Shown here one piece after another: positions 55,621 through 64,000 of a DNA stretch of 64,000 nucleotides. The stretch comes from Mesonia oceanica. Its GTDB lineage: Bacteria; Bacteroidota; Bacteroidia; Flavobacteriales; Flavobacteriaceae. Position 1 is the first letter of the stretch, and each line of letters starts with the position of its first letter. The position numbers and the translations under genes are program-made. The notes under the pieces are model-generated. The model ran no database searches. It had not been told where the DNA came from and saw nothing but the letters and a program-made list of their open reading frames with translations. The stretch covers positions 1 to 64,000 of the forward strand of contig NZ_CABVMM010000003.1 of NCBI RefSeq assembly GCF_902499555.1, written 5' to 3'.

Positions 55621-56652
55621 TTATTTGGGTAAGGTAAAATAAAAAGTGGTTCCTTTATCGAGTTCGCTCTCTAACCAAATTTTACCCTCATAGAAATCTA
55701 TAATTTTTTTCACAATGGAAAGCCCAATTCCTGTGGCTTGCTGGTCGTTATCTATTTTTTCAAAAATCCTGAATATTTTTTCAAATTGATGTTGAGGAAT
55801 ACCATAGCCATTATCTTTAATTGAAAATTCCCAAAAGTTTTCTCGGTCTTTGTAATCAATTTTTATAAGTCCTTTTTCCTTTTCTATACTATTAATTGCA
55901 TTTTGTAGGATATTTTGAAAAATTTGCTGAATCCTAACTGTGTCTCCATAAATGGTGGGAAAGTTTTTGGGTACTTGGAGCTCTATATGTTCGGGAATAT
56001 ATATGACTTCCGTGAGTTGGGTAAGGAGCAAATTTAAATCAATCACCTCTTTACCAAATTGTTCTTTGTCTAATGTTGAATAATTTAAAATGCCATTAAT
56101 TAAGGCATCCATTTTTTCCAGGTTATTTAAAATTAAACTTATGTATTCTTTACATTGACTGGCAAGTTCAGGTTTTTCTTCTAAAATGAAATTGAGTAAG
56201 GTATTGATATTACGTAAAGGCGATTTTAAATCGTGAGATACCATATGAGCATAATTGGAAAGAATTTCATTTTTATTTTCCAGGCTTTTTAATAAGGTTT
56301 CTTGTTCTTCCCTAACTTTATTCAATTCTTCACTTTGCTCCTTAAGGTAATTGGCAAGTTCTATTACATCTAAGTTTTCATTTTTTTGGGGAGTTTTTAA
56401 TTGTAAAGATTTTATCACCAATTTTAAACTGTCTAGAATTTCTTGTTGCGCTTTGCTTTCTTCCCTTAATTTTTGGTTAGCTACAAATAGTTCTTCAGAG
56501 CTTATTTGCATGGCCCGTTGAAGCATATTAAATTGCTCTTCTTGGGTATGATAAGATTTTTTTACGGCTTCTAAAAAAGGTTTTAGGCTTTCATTATTAG
56601 CTAAATCTTGAGGTAAAAACTTTCTTATTTGTCTTTCTAGTAGCGTACTCAT
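55621..56652 (-). CDS. Cytoplasmic histidine kinase with coiled-coil input
   Basis: The 343-residue protein has no membrane helix. Residues about 30-130 are coiled helices (QRAMQISSEELFVANQKLRE, LNKVREEQETLLKSLENKNE). The HisKA site is H140 in YAHMVSHDLKSPLRN. The HATPase domain has ILQNAINSIEKEKG, IKDNGYGIP, FEKID and GIGLSIVKKIIDFYEGKIWL. Its catalytic half is a close relative of that of the four-PAS kinase two genes upstream. It overlaps the FIST gene by 1 nt, so FIST and kinase are likely partners. Confidence 0.92.
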   Translation of the reverse strand: MSTLLERQIRKFLPQDLANNESLKPFLEAVKKSYHTQEEQFNMLQRAMQISSEELFVANQKLREESKAQQEILDSLKLVIKSLQLKTPQKNENLDVIELANYLKEQSEELNKVREEQETLLKSLENKNEILSNYAHMVSHDLKSPLRNINTLLNFILEEKPELASQCKEYISLILNNLEKMDALINGILNYSTLDKEQFGKEVIDLNLLLTQLTEVIYIPEHIELQVPKNFPTIYGDTVRIQQIFQNILQNAINSIEKEKGLIKIDYKDRENFWEFSIKDNGYGIPQHQFEKIFRIFEKIDNDQQATGIGLSIVKKIIDFYEGKIWLESELDKGTTFYFTLPK

Positions 56653-57782
56653 TATTCACTAATTAAAGTTAAGGTCATGGTTTGGTTGTGCAGTTCGCAA
56701 TTTTCTCCTTGATGGAAGGGGGCAATCTCTCCATAGGAATAGAAACCGGCAGTTGCAGAATTTTTTCCTATTATTTCTAATACTTCCTCAACTTCTTCTT
56801 CAGTACGCTGATCCATTACCATTTTCCTACCAATACAGCTTACCAAAAATGCTACTTCAGGAGCTTTTTTCCTGTTATCTATAGCTATTTTAGCAGCATC
56901 TATGGCTCCTTCAATAATGGCGTCTACCGAGGCCATCATGAGTTGTGTTCTTGAATTTTCTGGTACATCGCCTGCGAAAATCATGGATTTATTTTCTTGG
57001 TTTATATTCAGAATGGTCCTTACCACAGGTTGTGTTTTTCCTGAAGCTTGAACATTTAATGGAAAAAGTAATGCCGATTGGGGCAACTCAAAGGCTTTTT
57101 CACCTAAATATTTAGAATAGATATCAAGAGCGGGAATGCCATCTATTTCGTAAAGAATATTTCCTTCAGATTTAGTAATGATGCGTTCCGGTCCAAAAGG
57201 AACCCAGCCTCCAAAGCTTGCATAAGAAAATTCTAAACTATCTCCATAAAACCCAATGATTACAATTTCTCCTTCAGTGGGATCTTTTTGAAATGATACT
57301 AGGGTTTTTTCAAATCTATCATTATCACCACAAATGCCACCAGTGACTTTTACATCGCTTGGAAGCTTGCTCTCTATGCCTTCGATTAATTTACTGCCAT
57401 TAACGAAGCTGCCTTCAGAGATGATAAATATATGCTTGAGGTCTTTAGAAGGTAATTGTTCTATTAAATTTTTTCCGATGGAATAGGAGTCCTTACCAAA
57501 GTCAAAAAGATTAGCTTTTTTTATGATGAAAGAGCTTTTTTCAAATTCTATTGCTGTAATGGTAATTGAATTTTCTAATACTTGACTGCCAATAATCTCT
57601 CCGGCAGTAGAACTGAAAACGATATTTTTATAAGGAAATTCTTCCCGAATGTTTTTTAATACTTCCTTCCTTTCCAGTAGCGTTCTTTCAGCAAAAACCA
57701 AAACCAAAGGGTCCTTCAATTTTAGTTTAGGTTTTATATAGGTCCAAGTATTATTTTGCCAATAGGCTTGAATAACTTTCAT
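56652..57782 (-). CDS. FIST domain sensory protein
   Basis: The 376-residue soluble protein has a FIST N domain (about 20-215, with PLVLVFAERTLLERKEVLKN, IVFSSTAGEIIGS and VTGGICGDNDRFEKTLV) and a FIST C domain (about 215-360, with GIPALDIYSKYLGEKAF and FLVSCIGRKMVM, AGFYSYGEIAP). FIST domains are sensory and often accompany H-NOX or kinases; a NO/heme-linked link (NosP-type proteins are FIST proteins) is known. It begins 5 nt after the PAS kinase gene and overlaps the following kinase by 1 nt. The ligand is not certain from sequence. Confidence 0.9.
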   Translation of the reverse strand: MKVIQAYWQNNTWTYIKPKLKLKDPLVLVFAERTLLERKEVLKNIREEFPYKNIVFSSTAGEIIGSQVLENSITITAIEFEKSSFIIKKANLFDFGKDSYSIGKNLIEQLPSKDLKHIFIISEGSFVNGSKLIEGIESKLPSDVKVTGGICGDNDRFEKTLVSFQKDPTEGEIVIIGFYGDSLEFSYASFGGWVPFGPERIITKSEGNILYEIDGIPALDIYSKYLGEKAFELPQSALLFPLNVQASGKTQPVVRTILNINQENKSMIFAGDVPENSRTQLMMASVDAIIEGAIDAAKIAIDNRKKAPEVAFLVSCIGRKMVMDQRTEEEVEEVLEIIGKNSATAGFYSYGEIAPFHQGENCELHNQTMTLTLISE

Positions 57783-57787
57783 TTTCT

Positions 57788-60196
57788 TTATTTTTTTATG
57801 CTGAAATAGAAAGTAGTACCTATGCCTACTTCACTTTCTAACCAAATTTTACCGTTGTATAGGTCAACGATTTTTTTCACAATACTTAATCCTATTCCTG
57901 TAGATTTTTCATGGTTTCCTAGTGAACTGAAAATTTTGAAAATTCTTTCATGGTGTTCTTTCGCAATACCTATTCCGTTATCTTTTATAGAAAATATGTG
58001 ATGGGTGTTATTTTCTGAATGATTTACTTCTATAAGTCCTTTTTCTTTATCTATGTAATTTACAGCATTACCAATTAGATTTTGAAAAAGTTGCTGGATT
58101 CGGGTTTTATCTGCTTTAATTGTGGGTAAATTACTCTTAATCTTGACACTAACATGGTCAGGGATATAAATCATTTCCACAATCGTCTCGATGAGTTGGT
58201 TTAGGTCTATATTTTCCTCGGTTAATATATCACTTTCGATACTGGAGTATTTTAGGATGTTTTCAATAAGGTGATCCATTTTTTCAACCTTATTTTGCAT
58301 AAGATCCAGATTGGCTAGGCTTTCTTCTCCCAATTTATCCCTAAAGTCTTCTTTGGTCCAACTTAATAGTGCCGAAATATTTCTTAATGGTGATTTTAAA
58401 TCGTGCGAAACAATATGGGCATATTCGTTAAGTTGTTCATTCTGTTTTTCTAGGTTGCTAAGTAGCTGCTCCTTTTGTTTTTCCAATTCTTTTATTTGGG
58501 TGATGTCTAAATGAATGCCAACGGAGCCTGTTTTATTGCCTTTAACATCATAATTTGGAGCTGTACTAATAAGCCAGTAACGTTTTTCGCCTTTTTTATT
58601 CCTAATCTCTAGCTCATAAGAATCGGTGGTGTTTGGATCTCTGTCCTCAAGCCTGTTAAAATAGTCTTTTGAAGATTTTTTTGTTAGAAATAAATCGATT
58701 GCTCTTTTGCCTAAAAGTTCTTCTTGAGAGTAACCACTCATCTTAGAGAAGGTTTGGTTAGAGAATACTATTTTGTCTTCTATATCATTTTCCAATAAGC
58801 CTAAATTGATATGAGCTATAATACTGCTATATTTTTCTTTTTGAGCCTTAAGGCTTTCCCTATACTTTTTTTGTATGGTTACATCGGTATAGCTCCATAA
58901 ATGTCCTTTGTAATCTTTTTGATGATAAATAGGAATATAACTTCGCTCGAAAACCCTTCCGTCTTTTAGGTAAAGAGTGTCGTTAAGGGCTGTTTTTCTC
59001 TGTTGGAGGAGTTCTTCTATTCTATTCACAAAGCCTTCCTCGTCTTTAAAGAAAACTTTGTTTTGTTCTGCCGCATTGTCACAATTCATTCCTATTAATG
59101 CTTCCGGAGGGGCATCAATCCCAAACATATTACAGAAACGGGGATTGGTAAGCAGGATATTTCGGCCTTCATCTTCCAGCAAAACTCCTGTTTGGAGGTT
59201 CACAATAAGCGCGGCTAACCTATTTTCTGATTCTTTTAATTTTTCTAGGGCTTCTTTTTCTTTAGAGATATCTTCAAAGGTGGCTACTGTGTAGAAATTT
59301 TCTTCTTTCGAGACTTTAACTGCTGCAGCAGAAGTCTTTAACCAAATGACTTCCCCGTTCTTTTTAATATATCTTTTTTCTACAGAATAGTGATCTATTT
59401 TTCCTTCCAGTAATTTTTTTAGGTATTTTAAAGACCATTCTTTGTCTTCGGGATGGGTAATATCTCTAGGGTCTAAGTTATTTAATTCATCTTGTGTATA
59501 GCCTAGTAATTTTGCTAATCGCTTATTGGCAATTAACAATCCTTCTTGACCAATTTTTGCAAGGCTAATTCCAATAGGGGAATTGTCCATGATAATTTCT
59601 AATTGCCTTTTTTGCTCCTCTAGCTGTGTCTTAAGAAAATTTTCATTGGTAATGTCACGGGCTATTCCTTGGGCGGCAATAGGAATTCCTTCATCATCAT
59701 AGATTAAACTGGCATTGATTTGTACGGTTTTTTCTTTTTTATCTTTGGTAATGAGCTTTACTTTATAATTGGAAAACATACCTTCTTGGTATAGTTTTTT
59801 AAAAGCATCTTTACTGTAAGATTTGTATTCCGGTTTTACCAGTTCTACCAAGCTTATATTTTCTTTTTCATGATCAAAACCTAGCAGCTTTTTGGCGGCT
59901 TCATTCATATTTAATACATAGCCGTGAATGTCTATGACTACATATGCATCTATAATGTTGGTGAATACTCCCTCTAATTGATTGGTTTTTTCTTTAAGTA
60001 ATTTTGAAAGTTTTTGGTTAGAGGTTTTTAATGCTTCCGATAATTGATATAGTTCGTCAGATTTTTCTTCTAGGATAGCTTCAGCTTTTCGCCGGGCATT
60101 TTTTTCCCGCAGTACGGCTCGCTCCAATATTTCTATTTTCTTCAATGACTCCTCCATGTGATATGATTGTAAACTTAACTTCTGAACCTTTTTCAT
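57788..60196 (-). CDS. Four-PAS sensor histidine kinase
   Basis: The 802-residue protein is soluble, with an N-terminal coiled coil, four PAS domains (about 74-190, 200-320, 327-445 and 455-575) and a HisKA/HATPase core. The His is H598 in YAHIVSHDLKSPLRN; ATP-binding motifs are LIGNAVNYIDKEKG, IKDNGIGIA and GIGLSIVKKIVDLYNGKIWL. The first ATG gives a 116-nt overlap with the H-NOX gene; ATG 60157 (residue 14) would cut it to 77 nt. It is likely the H-NOX partner kinase, since such kinases are regularly encoded beside H-NOX. Confidence 0.92.
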   Translation of the reverse strand: MKKVQKLSLQSYHMEESLKKIEILERAVLREKNARRKAEAILEEKSDELYQLSEALKTSNQKLSKLLKEKTNQLEGVFTNIIDAYVVIDIHGYVLNMNEAAKKLLGFDHEKENISLVELVKPEYKSYSKDAFKKLYQEGMFSNYKVKLITKDKKEKTVQINASLIYDDEGIPIAAQGIARDITNENFLKTQLEEQKRQLEIIMDNSPIGISLAKIGQEGLLIANKRLAKLLGYTQDELNNLDPRDITHPEDKEWSLKYLKKLLEGKIDHYSVEKRYIKKNGEVIWLKTSAAAVKVSKEENFYTVATFEDISKEKEALEKLKESENRLAALIVNLQTGVLLEDEGRNILLTNPRFCNMFGIDAPPEALIGMNCDNAAEQNKVFFKDEEGFVNRIEELLQQRKTALNDTLYLKDGRVFERSYIPIYHQKDYKGHLWSYTDVTIQKKYRESLKAQKEKYSSIIAHINLGLLENDIEDKIVFSNQTFSKMSGYSQEELLGKRAIDLFLTKKSSKDYFNRLEDRDPNTTDSYELEIRNKKGEKRYWLISTAPNYDVKGNKTGSVGIHLDITQIKELEKQKEQLLSNLEKQNEQLNEYAHIVSHDLKSPLRNISALLSWTKEDFRDKLGEESLANLDLMQNKVEKMDHLIENILKYSSIESDILTEENIDLNQLIETIVEMIYIPDHVSVKIKSNLPTIKADKTRIQQLFQNLIGNAVNYIDKEKGLIEVNHSENNTHHIFSIKDNGIGIAKEHHERIFKIFSSLGNHEKSTGIGLSIVKKIVDLYNGKIWLESEVGIGTTFYFSIKK

Positions 60197-60692
60197 TTAA
60201 TAATTCAAAATTAATGTCGACATTTTCTTGGTAATATTCAAATGTTTTTTCCATTAATGCTTTTGCAAACATATACATGCTTCTTTCTGATTTGTATAAT
60301 AAGCTTAAACATTCGGAAGACTTATCGATAATTTTGAAGGAAGGCAGTTCTGCATCCGGATATATTTTTCTAACCTGAACATGAATATGATCTTCTATAG
60401 ATTCTACCAAATCTATAGGGGACTTATAATGTTGAAATATATAGGGGTGGTGGTCTGTTAAGGTTTTAAAGAAGTAAAGCCCATAATTATAGATTAAATC
60501 GTTGATAGGGATTTGAGTGAGGTTACTTAAATGAAACAATAGTTGTTGCATTTCCATAAAATCATAGGTGCCTACCGTAGTATAACTTCCTTTTGAAGGA
60601 AGCTTGGAATGGTTTATAATATGGTCTACTTTTTCTATTCCAAATTTCTCTTCAACCATCTCTAAAAACTCTGTAAATACGATTCCTTTCAT
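60081..60692 (-). CDS. hnoX: H-NOX (heme nitric oxide/oxygen binding) protein
   Basis: The 203-residue protein matches the HNOB family: MKGIVFTEFLEMVEEKFG at the start, the proximal heme His H104 (DHIHVQVRKIYPDAELPSF) with the following Pro117, and the heme-propionate motif YxSxR as Y133-K-S135-E-R137. It should bind heme and sense NO, or O2 if a distal Tyr exists; I see no clear one. It is first in the operon with the PAS kinase, FIST, kinase and LytTR genes. The last about 38 residues are read in a second frame within the overlap with the kinase gene. Confidence 0.92.
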   Translation of the reverse strand: MKGIVFTEFLEMVEEKFGIEKVDHIINHSKLPSKGSYTTVGTYDFMEMQQLLFHLSNLTQIPINDLIYNYGLYFFKTLTDHHPYIFQHYKSPIDLVESIEDHIHVQVRKIYPDAELPSFKIIDKSSECLSLLYKSERSMYMFAKALMEKTFEYYQENVDINFELLNEKGSEVKFTIISHGGVIEENRNIGASRTAGKKCPAKS

Positions 60693-61000: not shown

Positions 61001-62096
61001 ATGAAAAAAATTACTGTGTTTATTTATTGTATTTGTTACCATTTTAGTAAATAAATCCAAGGTGTATGCACAATCTGATAACTATTTCAAGCTAACCTTT
61101 GAAAAAAAGTTTATTGATGGTGAAGCTAATCAGGTGGCTTATATAAACTTTCCAGATATTGTTTTATGGGGATATTTTGAGGTTACAATTACTGGAGGCT
61201 ATAACCATAGATTGAATAAAGGTATATTGAAAAAGAGATTTGCTATGGTTCGTAATACTTCGAATTACTTTAGTGATTTAACAGAGGTCCCAATTGCATT
61301 TGGAGTGTTGGCAGACCAGTGGTGTATTGGGGATTTTGATGAAAATAACCTTCGTATACCTATTTATCATTTATCTTCTGCGGGAAATGAAATTGTGATA
61401 CAGGTTGAAGGTTTGATAAGAAAGAAGAGTAATGTTGATGCGATAATTGCTAATTTAAATATTAGCGATCCTGTTATTGTTTCTAATTCTAAGACTAGAC
61501 AGTATATGAGTATTATACAAGATAGAGTGGGAATAGGTACTAATAACCCACAAAATAAACTGGAACTAGCAAATTTAAATCACGACGGAATAAATTTAGA
61601 TAATAAGTTTAGACTTAGAACATTTGGCACATCAAATACCTTCATTTTAGAACATCTTGCTGATGAGGGTGATTTATATATTAGAAGCAAGATAGGACCT
61701 GATGACTCTGGAAATATTGTTATGAATGATGCTGGAGGAAATGTTCTTATAGGGCAAACAACTCAGCAAAATTCAGATTATAGACTAGATATTGATGGCC
61801 CAGTGAGGGCAAATGAAATTAAAATTAATTTGGATGGTGCAGATTTCGTGTTTGAACCTAACTATGAGCTAAGATCTCTTAAAGAGGTTGAAATTTACGT
61901 GAAAGAAAATAAGAGATTACCCGAGATAGCTTCTGCTGAGGAGATGAAAAAAGGAGCAAATGTAGGAGAGTTATCAAGGCAACTTTTGCAGAAAACAGAA
62001 GAATTAACCTTGTATACCATTCAACAGCATAAAGAAATCAAGAAATTAAATAATGAGCTTACCGAACTAAAAAAAGTAATAGTTAAATTAAATTAA
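61001..62096 (+). CDS. Secreted tail-fibre-like protein with frameshifted start
   Basis: The long frame opens right after a TGA at 61002-61004 and has no ATG near its start. Its first residues KKLLCLFIVFVTILVNKS, then KVYAQ, are a signal peptide. ATG 61001 is followed by seven A's; with six A's the frames join to MKKLLCLF. So the start is displaced by one base in a homopolymer. Otherwise translation may begin at a non-ATG codon such as GTG 61062. The mature part is beta-rich with a C-terminal chaperone/tail-fibre-like region (ADFVFEPNYELRSLKEVEIY) and a coiled coil (KEIKKLNNELTELKKVIVKL). The role is unknown; such proteins are common in Bacteroidota. A LytTR-type box is upstream. Confidence 0.75.
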
Positions 62097-62325: not shown

Positions 62326-63540
62326 TTGTTAAAAGCCACTTCTTTGGTGCAAGCTATCTTTGTCTGTTTATTAATTTCTTTGTTTTGTGGAGCTTTAGTG
62401 TTAACCTATCATTATACCAATCTTATAGGTAGTAAATATGAAAACAAGATAAAGCTTAATCAGGCTAATGAATCTTTTTTCAATTTTTCAGTTCAAAATT
62501 TAGGAAGTAAATCAAACTCGGAAATCATAACTTCTTTTCAAGGAGAATTTCCACAGTTTAATTTCTCTTTAGAAGAAAAGAAATGGGGAGTATATACTGT
62601 ATTGATAGCTTCTACTTATAGAGAGGGTGATACTATAAGTAAGTCTTCTATTTTGGGTGAAGTTATTAAAAGAGATATACCGGTGTTAGAATTGGCAGAA
62701 AACAATAAACCATTGAAATTGGGAGGAGATGTAAAGCTTTTTGGGGATATTTTAGTTCCTTATGGAGATTTTGAACAAATACATATAAATAATCAAAAAA
62801 ATTCTATTAGTCGTCGTGGGAAAAATAAAAAAACAGATTTAACTTTTAAAAACAATTATCTAGAGGATAAAAATTTTATTGATTTTAACAGTTTGATGTT
62901 GAAAAGCCTAAAAGAAAAGGTGATTCAGGAATTTAATAAAAAAACTGTTTTTTTGAGTTTTAGCAAGACACAAAGAATAGATAATCAGGTGTTAAAAGGA
63001 AATATATATATTGAGTCTAATGATACCGTAATTTTTTCTAAAAATAATTTGATAGAAGATATTATAGTGAAAGCTCCGGTGGTTGTTTTTGAAAATGAAT
63101 TTAGAGGTAATCTCCAGGTGTATGCCACTAATAAAATTATGATCGAAAAAAATGTAACTTTGACTTATCCTTCAGGGCTTTATATGAAATCTAATAATGA
63201 ATTAATATCAAATGAAATAGTGGTTGATTCGTTATCAGTAGTAAGGGGAAATATTATAGTTGATAAGTTATATGTGAACTTTAAATATGATAACCATCTA
63301 AAATTAAGTAAAGGCACTAAAGTCGTAGGAACAATTTATTGTAACGGTATTACTGAGGTTGAAGGAACTGTTTTTGGAGGTTTGGTCACAAAAAAACTAT
63401 TTCTTCATACTAAAAGTGCAGAATATGAAAATGTTCTTTATAATGTAGAGCTTAATACAGATAAAATACCTTCCGATTTTTGTTCATATGGTAGGTTTTT
63501 AGGTGGCAATCCAAATTATTATGAAATCAAAGAATTATAG
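62326..63540 (+). CDS. Prepilin-like N-terminus with beta-helix domain
   Basis: The 404-residue protein starts at TTG; upstream ATGs at 62316 and 62321 are out of frame. KATSLVQAIFVCLLISLFCG with the following ALVLTYHY resembles a type IV prepilin signal with Gln in place of Glu at +5, as in some GspK/PilX-type proteins. The C-terminal half repeats short V/I strands with Gly turns (RGNLQVYATNKIMIEKNV, VVGTIYCNGITEVEGTVFGG), like a bactofilin or right-handed beta-helix. It overlaps the next prepilin-like gene by 20 nt. I do not recognise a named family. Confidence 0.7.
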   Translation: MLKATSLVQAIFVCLLISLFCGALVLTYHYTNLIGSKYENKIKLNQANESFFNFSVQNLGSKSNSEIITSFQGEFPQFNFSLEEKKWGVYTVLIASTYREGDTISKSSILGEVIKRDIPVLELAENNKPLKLGGDVKLFGDILVPYGDFEQIHINNQKNSISRRGKNKKTDLTFKNNYLEDKNFIDFNSLMLKSLKEKVIQEFNKKTVFLSFSKTQRIDNQVLKGNIYIESNDTVIFSKNNLIEDIIVKAPVVVFENEFRGNLQVYATNKIMIEKNVTLTYPSGLYMKSNNELISNEIVVDSLSVVRGNIIVDKLYVNFKYDNHLKLSKGTKVVGTIYCNGITEVEGTVFGGLVTKKLFLHTKSAEYENVLYNVELNTDKIPSDFCSYGRFLGGNPNYYEIKEL

Positions 63541-63856
63541 CAGATTAAAAGGGAGTTCTTTAATAGAATCTATAATAGCAATTGCAATAATTTCTATTTG
63601 TATATTACTTGGAGTGACAATCTATTCAAATGTTTTGAAGTATGATAATATAAACATTGAAGTCTTAAACAATCACGTGGAACTAGATTTTCAGGAAATG
63701 AAATTAAATACTAGTTATAAAGATAAGAACTATAATTATAAAGAATATACTATTCGCAGGAAAGTGAATATGAAGGATCAATTGTTTGAGGTAGAATATT
63801 TAATAACTAACAATCTAGATACTCTTTTGCAAAGAAAATATTTTGAAAACCTATAA
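63521..63856 (+). CDS. Type IV prepilin-like minor pseudopilin
   Basis: ATG 63521 gives MKSKNYSRLKGSSLIESIIA, a canonical prepilin start: basic leader, Gly, then SSLIE with Glu at +5 and a hydrophobic helix (IIAIAIISICILLGVTIY). The longer frame from 63503 would add MAIQII and overlap more. The mature part is about 100 residues with charged strands (RRKVNMKDQLFEVEYLITNN). It would be cut by a prepilin peptidase (not in the window) and inserted in a pilus or pseudopilus. It overlaps both neighbours. Confidence 0.8.
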   Translation: MKSKNYSRLKGSSLIESIIAIAIISICILLGVTIYSNVLKYDNINIEVLNNHVELDFQEMKLNTSYKDKNYNYKEYTIRRKVNMKDQLFEVEYLITNNLDTLLQRKYFENL

Positions 63857-64000
63857 AAAAGCATATACAATATCTGAAGTGATATTAAACTTACTCTTAA
63901 TTTCGATAATTATGGGTTTGATGTATTCTTTTGTGTTTTTTTTCTCTAATCAAGTTAATGATTTTAACCTTTCTAAAATTAAATTTTTAGAGTATAAATT
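63843..64000 (+). CDS. Third prepilin-like protein (3' partial)
   Basis: The frame runs off the right edge. From TTG 63843 it reads LKTYKKAYTISEVILNLLLI, then SIIMGLMYSFVFFFSNQ. KKA-YTISE has the prepilin pattern with Glu at +5 and a long hydrophobic helix. It overlaps the preceding gene by 14 nt, which signals translational coupling. It is probably another minor pseudopilin of the same set. Confidence 0.7.
   Translation, partial: MKTYKKAYTISEVILNLLLISIIMGLMYSFVFFFSNQVNDFNLSKIKFLEYK

Follow-up and report, generated by a model that had tools for sequence, protein, structure and literature searches.

To what kind of machine do three overlapping prepilin-like genes belong in a flavobacterium? 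They stand at the right end of the window, the 64,000-nucleotide stretch of Mesonia oceanica DNA analysed here, which is bases 1–64000 of a 386-kb contig (NZ_CABVMM010000003.1, below C3) in a genome of 4.28 Mb. The genes, K, I and J, open a 12-gene cluster resembling a type II secretion system (T2SS), and in the Flavobacteriaceae this cluster is linked to genes for giant YD/Rhs-repeat proteins, SPV and Rhs. The linkage of the Bacteroidota T2SS-like machine to these genes is what is new here. Probably, K, I and J are minor pseudopilins of the machine, and a pseudopilus tipped by K would export the Sec-delivered SPV and Rhs proteins, the export being the part that we infer.

The pseudopilin genes and their machine

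The three genes are the following (aa, amino acids).

62326–63540, + strand: K, GspK-like minor pseudopilin, 404 aa, TTG start
63521–63856, + strand: I, GspI/ComGE-like minor pseudopilin, 111 aa, ATG start
63843–64000, onward to 64316 of contig C3, + strand: J, GspJ/ComGF-like minor pseudopilin, 157 aa, TTG start, truncated by the window end

On rereading, all three genes carry what the preliminary description had seen in them, a basic leader and a hydrophobic helix with Q, E and E at position +5. K starts with MLKA ahead of TSLVQAIFVCLLISLF (Q at +5), I has ...RLKG ahead of SSLIESIIAIAIIS (E at +5) and J has MKTYKKA ahead of YTISEVILNLLLIS (E at +5). The coordinates bear out the overlaps of 20 nt between K and I and 14 nt between I and J. 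By models, I gives 19.7 bits with PF07963 (cut-off 21.2) and 21.2 bits with ComGE (cut-off 49), and J gives 22.1 bits with ComGF (cut-off 80) and no match in Pfam.

The cleavage motif, the absence of which from homologues had been named as a possible objection, is conserved among them. E+5 is found in 18/18 homologues of I (all by script), 18/18 of J and 40/40 of the major pilin G, and in 0/21 of K (22 rows minus one with a too-late start of its open reading frame, ORF). The script called 16 of the J and 37 of the G homologues; the remaining two and three, which have Ser at −1, were judged by eye. The last leader residue in the homologues of K, I, J and G is mostly Ala, also Gly or Ser. The K, I and J families are found repeatedly in the same order, beyond chance.

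Glu+5 is absent from GspK of the T2SS, too. K, the largest of the minor pseudopilins and without Glu+5, and the I- and J-like genes after it match the T2SS I-J-K tip. K is called GspK-like for this architecture rather than for GspK sequence homology.

Structure prediction, which had been proposed as a check, found pilin-type strands and a beta-solenoid in K. The AlphaFold model (20 sequences; pLDDT 80.4, pTM 0.79) has a helix at 7–57, strands at 79–113, a run of strands at about 121–377 taken as the solenoid and a last strand at 397–403. Hence, of the bactofilin-like beta-helix described before, a predicted solenoid stands and the bactofilin does not: PF04519 reaches 20.4 bits at residues 296–352, below the gathering cut-off of 27.9, and BacA matches by PDB sequence only at E 2.4.

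In Foldseek against the PDB, the top three matches of K are all ComZ chains and the sole one below E 0.001 is 6qvi_C (E 7e-4, probability 0.94, TM-score 0.25). A further structural comparison gave ComZ Z 11.5 with a root-mean-square deviation of 13. Over both comparisons, the deviation across both domains is 13–17, and the identity is 9–11%; as modelled, the relative placement of the two domains differs from ComZ or is uncertain. The union of a pilin N-terminus with a beta-helix had seemed unfamiliar and has in ComZ a solved precedent, described as a pilin of the GspK type whose inserted beta-solenoid has room solely at the fibre tip (PMC6561018).

The window ends within the third gene of the cluster K-I-J-F-G-O-E-D-L-M-FN-C. 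The machine genes share the strand of K, I and J and are overlapping or closely spaced (positions on contig C3).

64300–65412, + strand: F, GspF (PF00482)
65450–65869, + strand: G, GspG-like major pseudopilin
65874–66347, + strand: O, A24 prepilin peptidase (PF01478), short at 157 aa
66344–67738, + strand: E, GspE ATPase (PF00437, 394 bits)
67740–69644, + strand: D, secretin (PF00263)
69653–70819, + strand: L, GspL-like
70816–71346, + strand: M, GspM-like
71333–72295, + strand: FN, lipoprotein-like, with Ig-like matches below cut-off
72298–72798, + strand: C, GspC-like

The preliminary description had placed the rest of the machine right of the window, and the ATPase, A24 peptidase, GspF and secretin do lie 0.3–9 kb beyond its end. 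It had also held that a genome lacking an assembly ATPase or a prepilin peptidase would speak against a pseudopilus. PF00437 and PF01478 each have one over-cut-off match in this genome, both at this cluster. The pseudopilus of a T2SS-like or unknown machine, as first proposed, is supported by the cluster, with the adjustment that a flavobacterial T2SS-like cluster has already been published (PMC5553014).

The curated NCBIfam cut-offs are missed by GspE (441.3/630.3 bits), GspF (256.5/424), GspD (126.6/351.4) and GspG (27/88.9). The ATPase scores 469 bits with the PilB model versus 441 with GspE, and G is also matched by the ComGC and PilA models, below cut-off. For GspC and GspM, family and PDB sequence searches gave no usable match; in the C protein, a hydrophobic segment at the N-terminus and a conserved PF pair were seen.

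L looks like a GspL-type fusion, in which an actin-like part, one transmembrane helix and a ferredoxin-like periplasmic domain would form one chain. Matches are to PulL/EpsL and PilM in the actin-like part and to XcpY/PilN at the C-terminus. L compares with PulL 5tkw at E 3.5e-7 and with the XcpY periplasmic domain at TMt 0.76 and E 0.011, the domain placement being uncertain from the model pTM of 0.56. The PilN match at the C-terminus recurs in 14/15 members, and L of the window genome has 18.1 of 22.8 bits.

No PilT-like gene was found in the window genome, where 28/28 candidates were scored and the one over cut-off is gspE, or in the family sample described below, where the 40 matches below E 1e-100 in 38 genomes are all gspE of the loci (nine candidates scored per genome). 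A retractile type IV pilus was rejected on this ground. We file the locus with the known Bacteroidetes T2SS-like system, not with the proteobacterial-type T2SS.

Linkage to SPV and Rhs genes

Beyond the machine, the contig continues with the following.

72854–73396: LP, lipoprotein-like
73611–79340: SPV, large YD/Rhs-repeat protein of 1909 aa, its only copy in the genome
between SPV and LolA3: three ORFs of 454–527 aa
83827–84543: LolA3 (NF053579, 187.5 bits, cut-off 83)
84568–94155: Rhs ORF of 3195 aa (TIGR03696, 38.8 bits, cut-off 32.5)

The family sample held 199 genomes of 198 genera, and gspE was called by PF00437 at E <1e-100. It is present in 38/199 genomes, at 40 loci. Exactly these 38 genomes give strong matches to the K profile, two others giving weak ones, and K comes as one copy per gspE and two where gspE is doubled; in one genome it is in two adjoining pieces. 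G, O, E, D, L and M are together in 37/40 loci, the other three being cut at contig or stretch ends.

The loci come in two layouts: one is window-like, and the other has G-O-E-D-L-M beside a divergent SPV and a block FN-C-K-I-J-F elsewhere. K is also found in 19 loci of named records (Flavivirga, Lacinutrix, Hyunsoonleella, Bizionia, Psychroserpens, uncultured Flavobacteriaceae and others). Seventeen of these have the order K-I-J-F-G-O-E-D-L-M-FN-C, and the other two are cut at contig ends. Since the I and G profiles cross-match, position was used there to place the small pilins.

SPV lies within 10 kb of gspE in 35/40 loci and at 28.9 kb in one more, while its random placement would give 1.07 loci with a copy within 20 kb (SPV copy numbers counted, genome sizes rounded). 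By genomes, SPV is in 38/38 with gspE versus 3/161 without it (Fisher 1e-37, a p-value that ignores shared ancestry). The Rhs-core model, with training independent of these loci, hits 38/38 versus 34/161. Among genomes of at least 3.5 Mb, one without a listed size being excluded, the counts are 29/29 versus 1/50 for SPV and 29/29 versus 16/50 for the Rhs core.

An Rhs ORF lies within the fetched stretch in 31/40 loci. LolA3 occurs in 11/199 genomes, all with gspE, and within the fetched stretch in 8/40 loci. An OmpH/Skp-like neighbour is seen at 16/40 loci (PF03938 84.8 bits at one locus and 31.9, just under the cut-off of 32.4, at a second), none lying between C and LP at the window's own locus. 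LP is present at 16/40 loci and a response-regulator-like neighbour at 14/40 (PF00072 22.3 of 30.2 bits). The commonest other recurrent neighbours thus reach 16/40 loci versus 36/40 for SPV.

Outside the family, a phylum sample of 326 genomes was used, with at least 389 bits for a gspE-type ATPase; its split from the PilB-type was set after seeing the data, in the gap between 389 and 364 bits. This ATPase is in 30/326 genomes, and SPV accompanies it in 10/10 within the family and 15/20 outside. The lower-scoring PilB-like ATPase occurs alone in 117 genomes, three of them with SPV. Of the 21 gspE-type loci outside the family, 10 were seen to have SPV within 15 kb (families f3, f12, f19, f23, f38 and f43), which is a lower bound because at most three SPV candidates were scored per genome.

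Fourteen of these 21 loci were mapped, chosen mostly for SPV nearby, and the SPV/Rhs label at 10/14 is accordingly a biased count. Their gene orders are not those of the Flavobacteriaceae. In f23, E-D-(L-sized ORF)-M-C-pilin-x-SPV runs on one strand in 3/4 loci mapped. In f38, a pilin, E, D, M, C and K come after LP-SPV-RHS, and an Rhs-type ORF adjoins E in both loci of f19. K-like genes outside the family score 221 bits in f3, 107 in f16, 70 in f38 and weakly, at 40, in f12.

The proposed cargo has a Sec-like N-terminus in 36/38 SPV and 28/29 Rhs ORFs longer than 900 aa, by a hydropathy rule with no control set. Eight of the 29 Rhs proteins were scanned for the Rhs core and all exceed the cut-off. 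DUF6443 is strong in 4/4 scanned, and the Rhs of the window genome has 27.5 of 27.8 bits. Rhs tails are similar in 1/36 pairs and bodies in 36/36 (9/29 ORFs with the motif used, a wider one adopted after the initial motif matched one ORF). The tips carry nuclease families, HNH and AHH, in 2/4 scanned.

By PDB sequence, one Rhs protein resembles YenC2 (E 7e-7) and also a teneurin-like protein. The start of SPV weakly matches SpvB (PF03534 in 3/19 members, best E 0.0015; 15.3 of 22 bits in the window genome), one SPV has RHS_repeat at 26.5 bits (cut-off 22), and no PDB sequence matched SPV. A type IX secretion system (T9SS) sorting domain was found in 0/7 Rhs proteins scanned. With a toxin at the C-terminus there would be no room for a T9SS signal at that end, and a different exit through the outer membrane thus seems needed. 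TANFOR was considered as the N-terminal domain of the cargo and dropped, as it is not among the NCBIfam matches of the Rhs proteins, in a library not checked for a TANFOR model.

The Rhs genes also show repeats. A 259-bp inverted repeat, 95.8% identical, at 93148–93406 and 98959–99217 of C3 (L008:12148–12406 and L008:17959–18217) links the 3195-aa Rhs gene, at its core, to an opposite-strand orphan Rhs-tip ORF. Between the copies lies an ORF (94394–95425) that is presumably tyrosine-recombinase-like, and inversion at the repeat could switch the Rhs tip. Arrays of Rhs-core ORFs, mostly of 240–400 aa, at 289–295 kb of contig C1, 412–421 kb of C2 and 1.5–6.2 kb of C26 in the same genome resemble stores of orphan tips. 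Another genome (G157) has a 172-bp inverted repeat, 97.7% identical, not necessarily in Rhs.

Other neighbours were noted. A 454/476-aa secreted-protein gene is duplicated in tandem at L008:1–1408 and L008:1435–2841 (99.4% over 1.4 kb), a related 527-aa ORF preceding it. A MORN-repeat family is at 8/40 loci (e.g. L109:14279–14998; PF07661 36.9 bits in one), in seven about 6 kb before gspE, near K. Just ahead of K, the window has

61062–62096, + strand: 344-aa protein of a VGIGT..NP fibre-like family, which may be accessory; this family is at 16/40 gspE loci

A relative at L057:3931–5220 matches PF04917 (Shufflon_N) at 29 bits (cut-off 27.5), which hints at a pilin-tip adhesin link, and another relative has no match.

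Further left lies

60081–60692, − strand: haem-NO-binding gene (HNOB, 121 bits)

Beside it are genes that we take to be PAS histidine-kinase-like (57788–60196, − strand), FIST-like (56652–57782, − strand) and second kinase-like (55621–56652, − strand). The HNOB gene and these neighbours possibly form a nitric oxide-sensing pathway adjoining the cluster.

Proposed export and rival explanations

The anatomy of the cluster argues well for the assembly steps. O would cleave the short leaders, mostly after Ala. E with the platform of F, L, M and C would then assemble a short pilus of G, initiated by the I-J-K tip, and D would be the outer-membrane pore. K should sit at the very tip because it has no Glu+5 and bears a bulky beta-solenoid. 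As no retraction ATPase was found, the fibre should act as a piston rather than twitch.

The cargo steps are more conjectural. The neighbouring giant SPV and Rhs proteins would enter the periplasm via Sec, and the Skp-like chaperone, together with LolA3 in some genomes, may keep them competent there. Folded into a YD/Rhs shell that has a variable toxin at its C-terminus, they would be pushed through D. The K solenoid might touch the cargo or the secretin gate, and the lipoproteins FN and LP might anchor or pilot the secretin or the cargo at the outer membrane.

Several points weigh against this export. In Cytophaga hutchinsonii, t2s mutants are altered in cellulose-bound outer-membrane proteins and adhesion with the extracellular profiles hardly changed (PMC5553014). 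The best match of K, ComZ, serves as a receptor for DNA and has a TM-score of just 0.25, and ice-binding solenoids reach Z up to 12.5 with K, exceeding the 11.5 of ComZ; from the model, we read that likeness as a common solenoid arrangement. Copies linked to gspE were the source of both the K profile (A2) and the SPV profile (A1); for A1, no more than six candidates per genome were scored in the family sample and three in the phylum sample.

On the same side, four loci have no SPV in the fetched stretch, two of them near contig ends, and 5/20 non-family genomes with the gspE-type ATPase have no SPV. SPV is conversely present in 30/179 genomes of the phylum sample without a strong PF00437 match, three of them in the window's family, in addition to the three gspE-less genomes of the family sample. 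By the phylum counts, thus, the machine implies the proposed cargo far more than the cargo implies the machine.

A T2SS-like machine might instead carry other surface cargo, such as the VGIGT fibre-like proteins, lipoproteins or adhesins, with the Rhs proteins exiting otherwise. The C. hutchinsonii t2s mutants, losing cellulose-bound outer-membrane proteins and adhesion (PMC5553014), fit this, as do the VGIGT family at 16/40 loci and the many non-family genomes that have SPV and no machine. We nevertheless judge it unlikely, since no such neighbour exceeds 16/40 loci versus 36/40 for SPV. A competence pseudopilus for DNA uptake, in which K would be a DNA receptor at the tip, like ComZ, and the Rhs genes bystanders, would account for ComZ as the sole PDB match of K below E 0.001, for I and J scoring best with the ComGE and ComGF models, though far below cut-off, and for G matching ComGC and PilA below cut-off. 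It leaves unexplained the SPV linkage (35/40 loci, and several other families); the recurrent neighbours include no gene that was recognised as a competence gene, comEA and comEC not being searched for, and the GspL-type fusion speaks for a platform of the secretion type. We give it only a small chance.

An adhesion or twitching type IVa pilus appears very improbable. The Bacteroidetes system does cluster with type IVa pili (PMC6668835) and the ATPase scores higher with PilB than with GspE (469 versus 441 bits), but no PilT-like gene was found in the window genome or the family sample and L resembles the GspL fusion of PilM and PilN. Export of SPV and Rhs proteins by a K-tipped pseudopilus hence remains the reading that we prefer. 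It might be taken further, to a distinct and dedicated Rhs-toxin secretion system of Bacteroidota that came from the type IVa pilus line independently of the proteobacterial T2SS and converged on the same platform, with K as the cargo-contacting piston head and the Skp-like protein and LolA3 as its own chaperones. This extension we offer tentatively, as a serious possibility.

Relation to known systems

By the matching component set, we take the locus as a member of the published Bacteroidetes T2SS (Wang 2017, PMC5553014), which comprises CHU_3191–3202 of C. hutchinsonii and Fjoh_0611–0622 of Flavobacterium johnsoniae, Fjoh_0611–0613 being given as minor pseudopilins. A 2019 analysis (Denise 2019, PMC6668835) clusters the Bacteroidetes system with type IVa pili and holds that it might be a novel secretion system. 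These papers leave open the substrates of the Bacteroidota T2SS, and the exit route of Sec-signalled polymorphic toxins is likewise left open (PMC7073777), as far as their accessible parts go. The co-occurrence and the tight repeated linkage unite both questions by naming a testable pair of machine and cargo: the same machine stands repeatedly beside giant Rhs-type toxin genes, which suggests a possible export cargo.

A literature search, mostly by titles and abstract starts and outside subscription papers and preprints, found no paper on a link between the Bacteroidota T2SS and Rhs proteins. In PMC3482391, "T2SS" is the label given to toxins that have a Sec signal, for which no signature neighbours are listed; pilin, pseudopilin and GspD are absent from the text as available. 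LolA3 gains a candidate role from the proximity of its tag, Fjoh_0605, six numbers ahead of the T2SS tags Fjoh_0611–0622 (PMC11885536, PMC5553014). Its deletion in F. johnsoniae left gliding and amylase secretion unaffected (PMC11885536).

The system of Wang 2017 has, like this locus, D, E, F, G, O, candidates for L, M and C, and minor pseudopilins, while the available part of that paper does not mention the K solenoid, FN, LP, the Skp-like and LolA3 neighbours or the Rhs linkage (PMC5553014). The proteobacterial T2SS (Gsp/Pul/Xcp) shares with this locus the I-J-K tip logic, the GspL-type fusion, the secretin and the lack of a detected retraction ATPase. The locus differs from it in the missed curated cut-offs of GspE, GspF, GspD and GspG, the gene order, the beta-solenoid of K and the placement by the literature with type IVa pili (PMC6668835).

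ComZ of Thermus thermophilus (6qvi) has, like K, a pilin domain and a large beta-solenoid, and its site at the fibre tip has been argued (PMC6561018). K differs in its setting, a GspL-type platform and Rhs genes, and its domains do not superpose with those of ComZ as one body. It would be a further pilin with a solenoid, next to ComZ, and one that belongs to secretion and not to competence.

The Rhs neighbours share the Rhs core and variable tails with other Rhs/YD toxins, the TcC-type YenC2 and teneurin-like proteins. Those other toxins are delivered by the type VI secretion system or the Tc needle, whereas the Rhs neighbours have a Sec-like N-terminus and the pseudopilus linkage. The TANFOR polymorphic toxins of Bacteroidetes are Sec-signalled, and for their exporter the authors speculated on the T9SS (PMC7073777). 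The Rhs proteins here come from the same phylum and have Sec-like N-termini, and the machine to which they are linked is a T2SS-like one.
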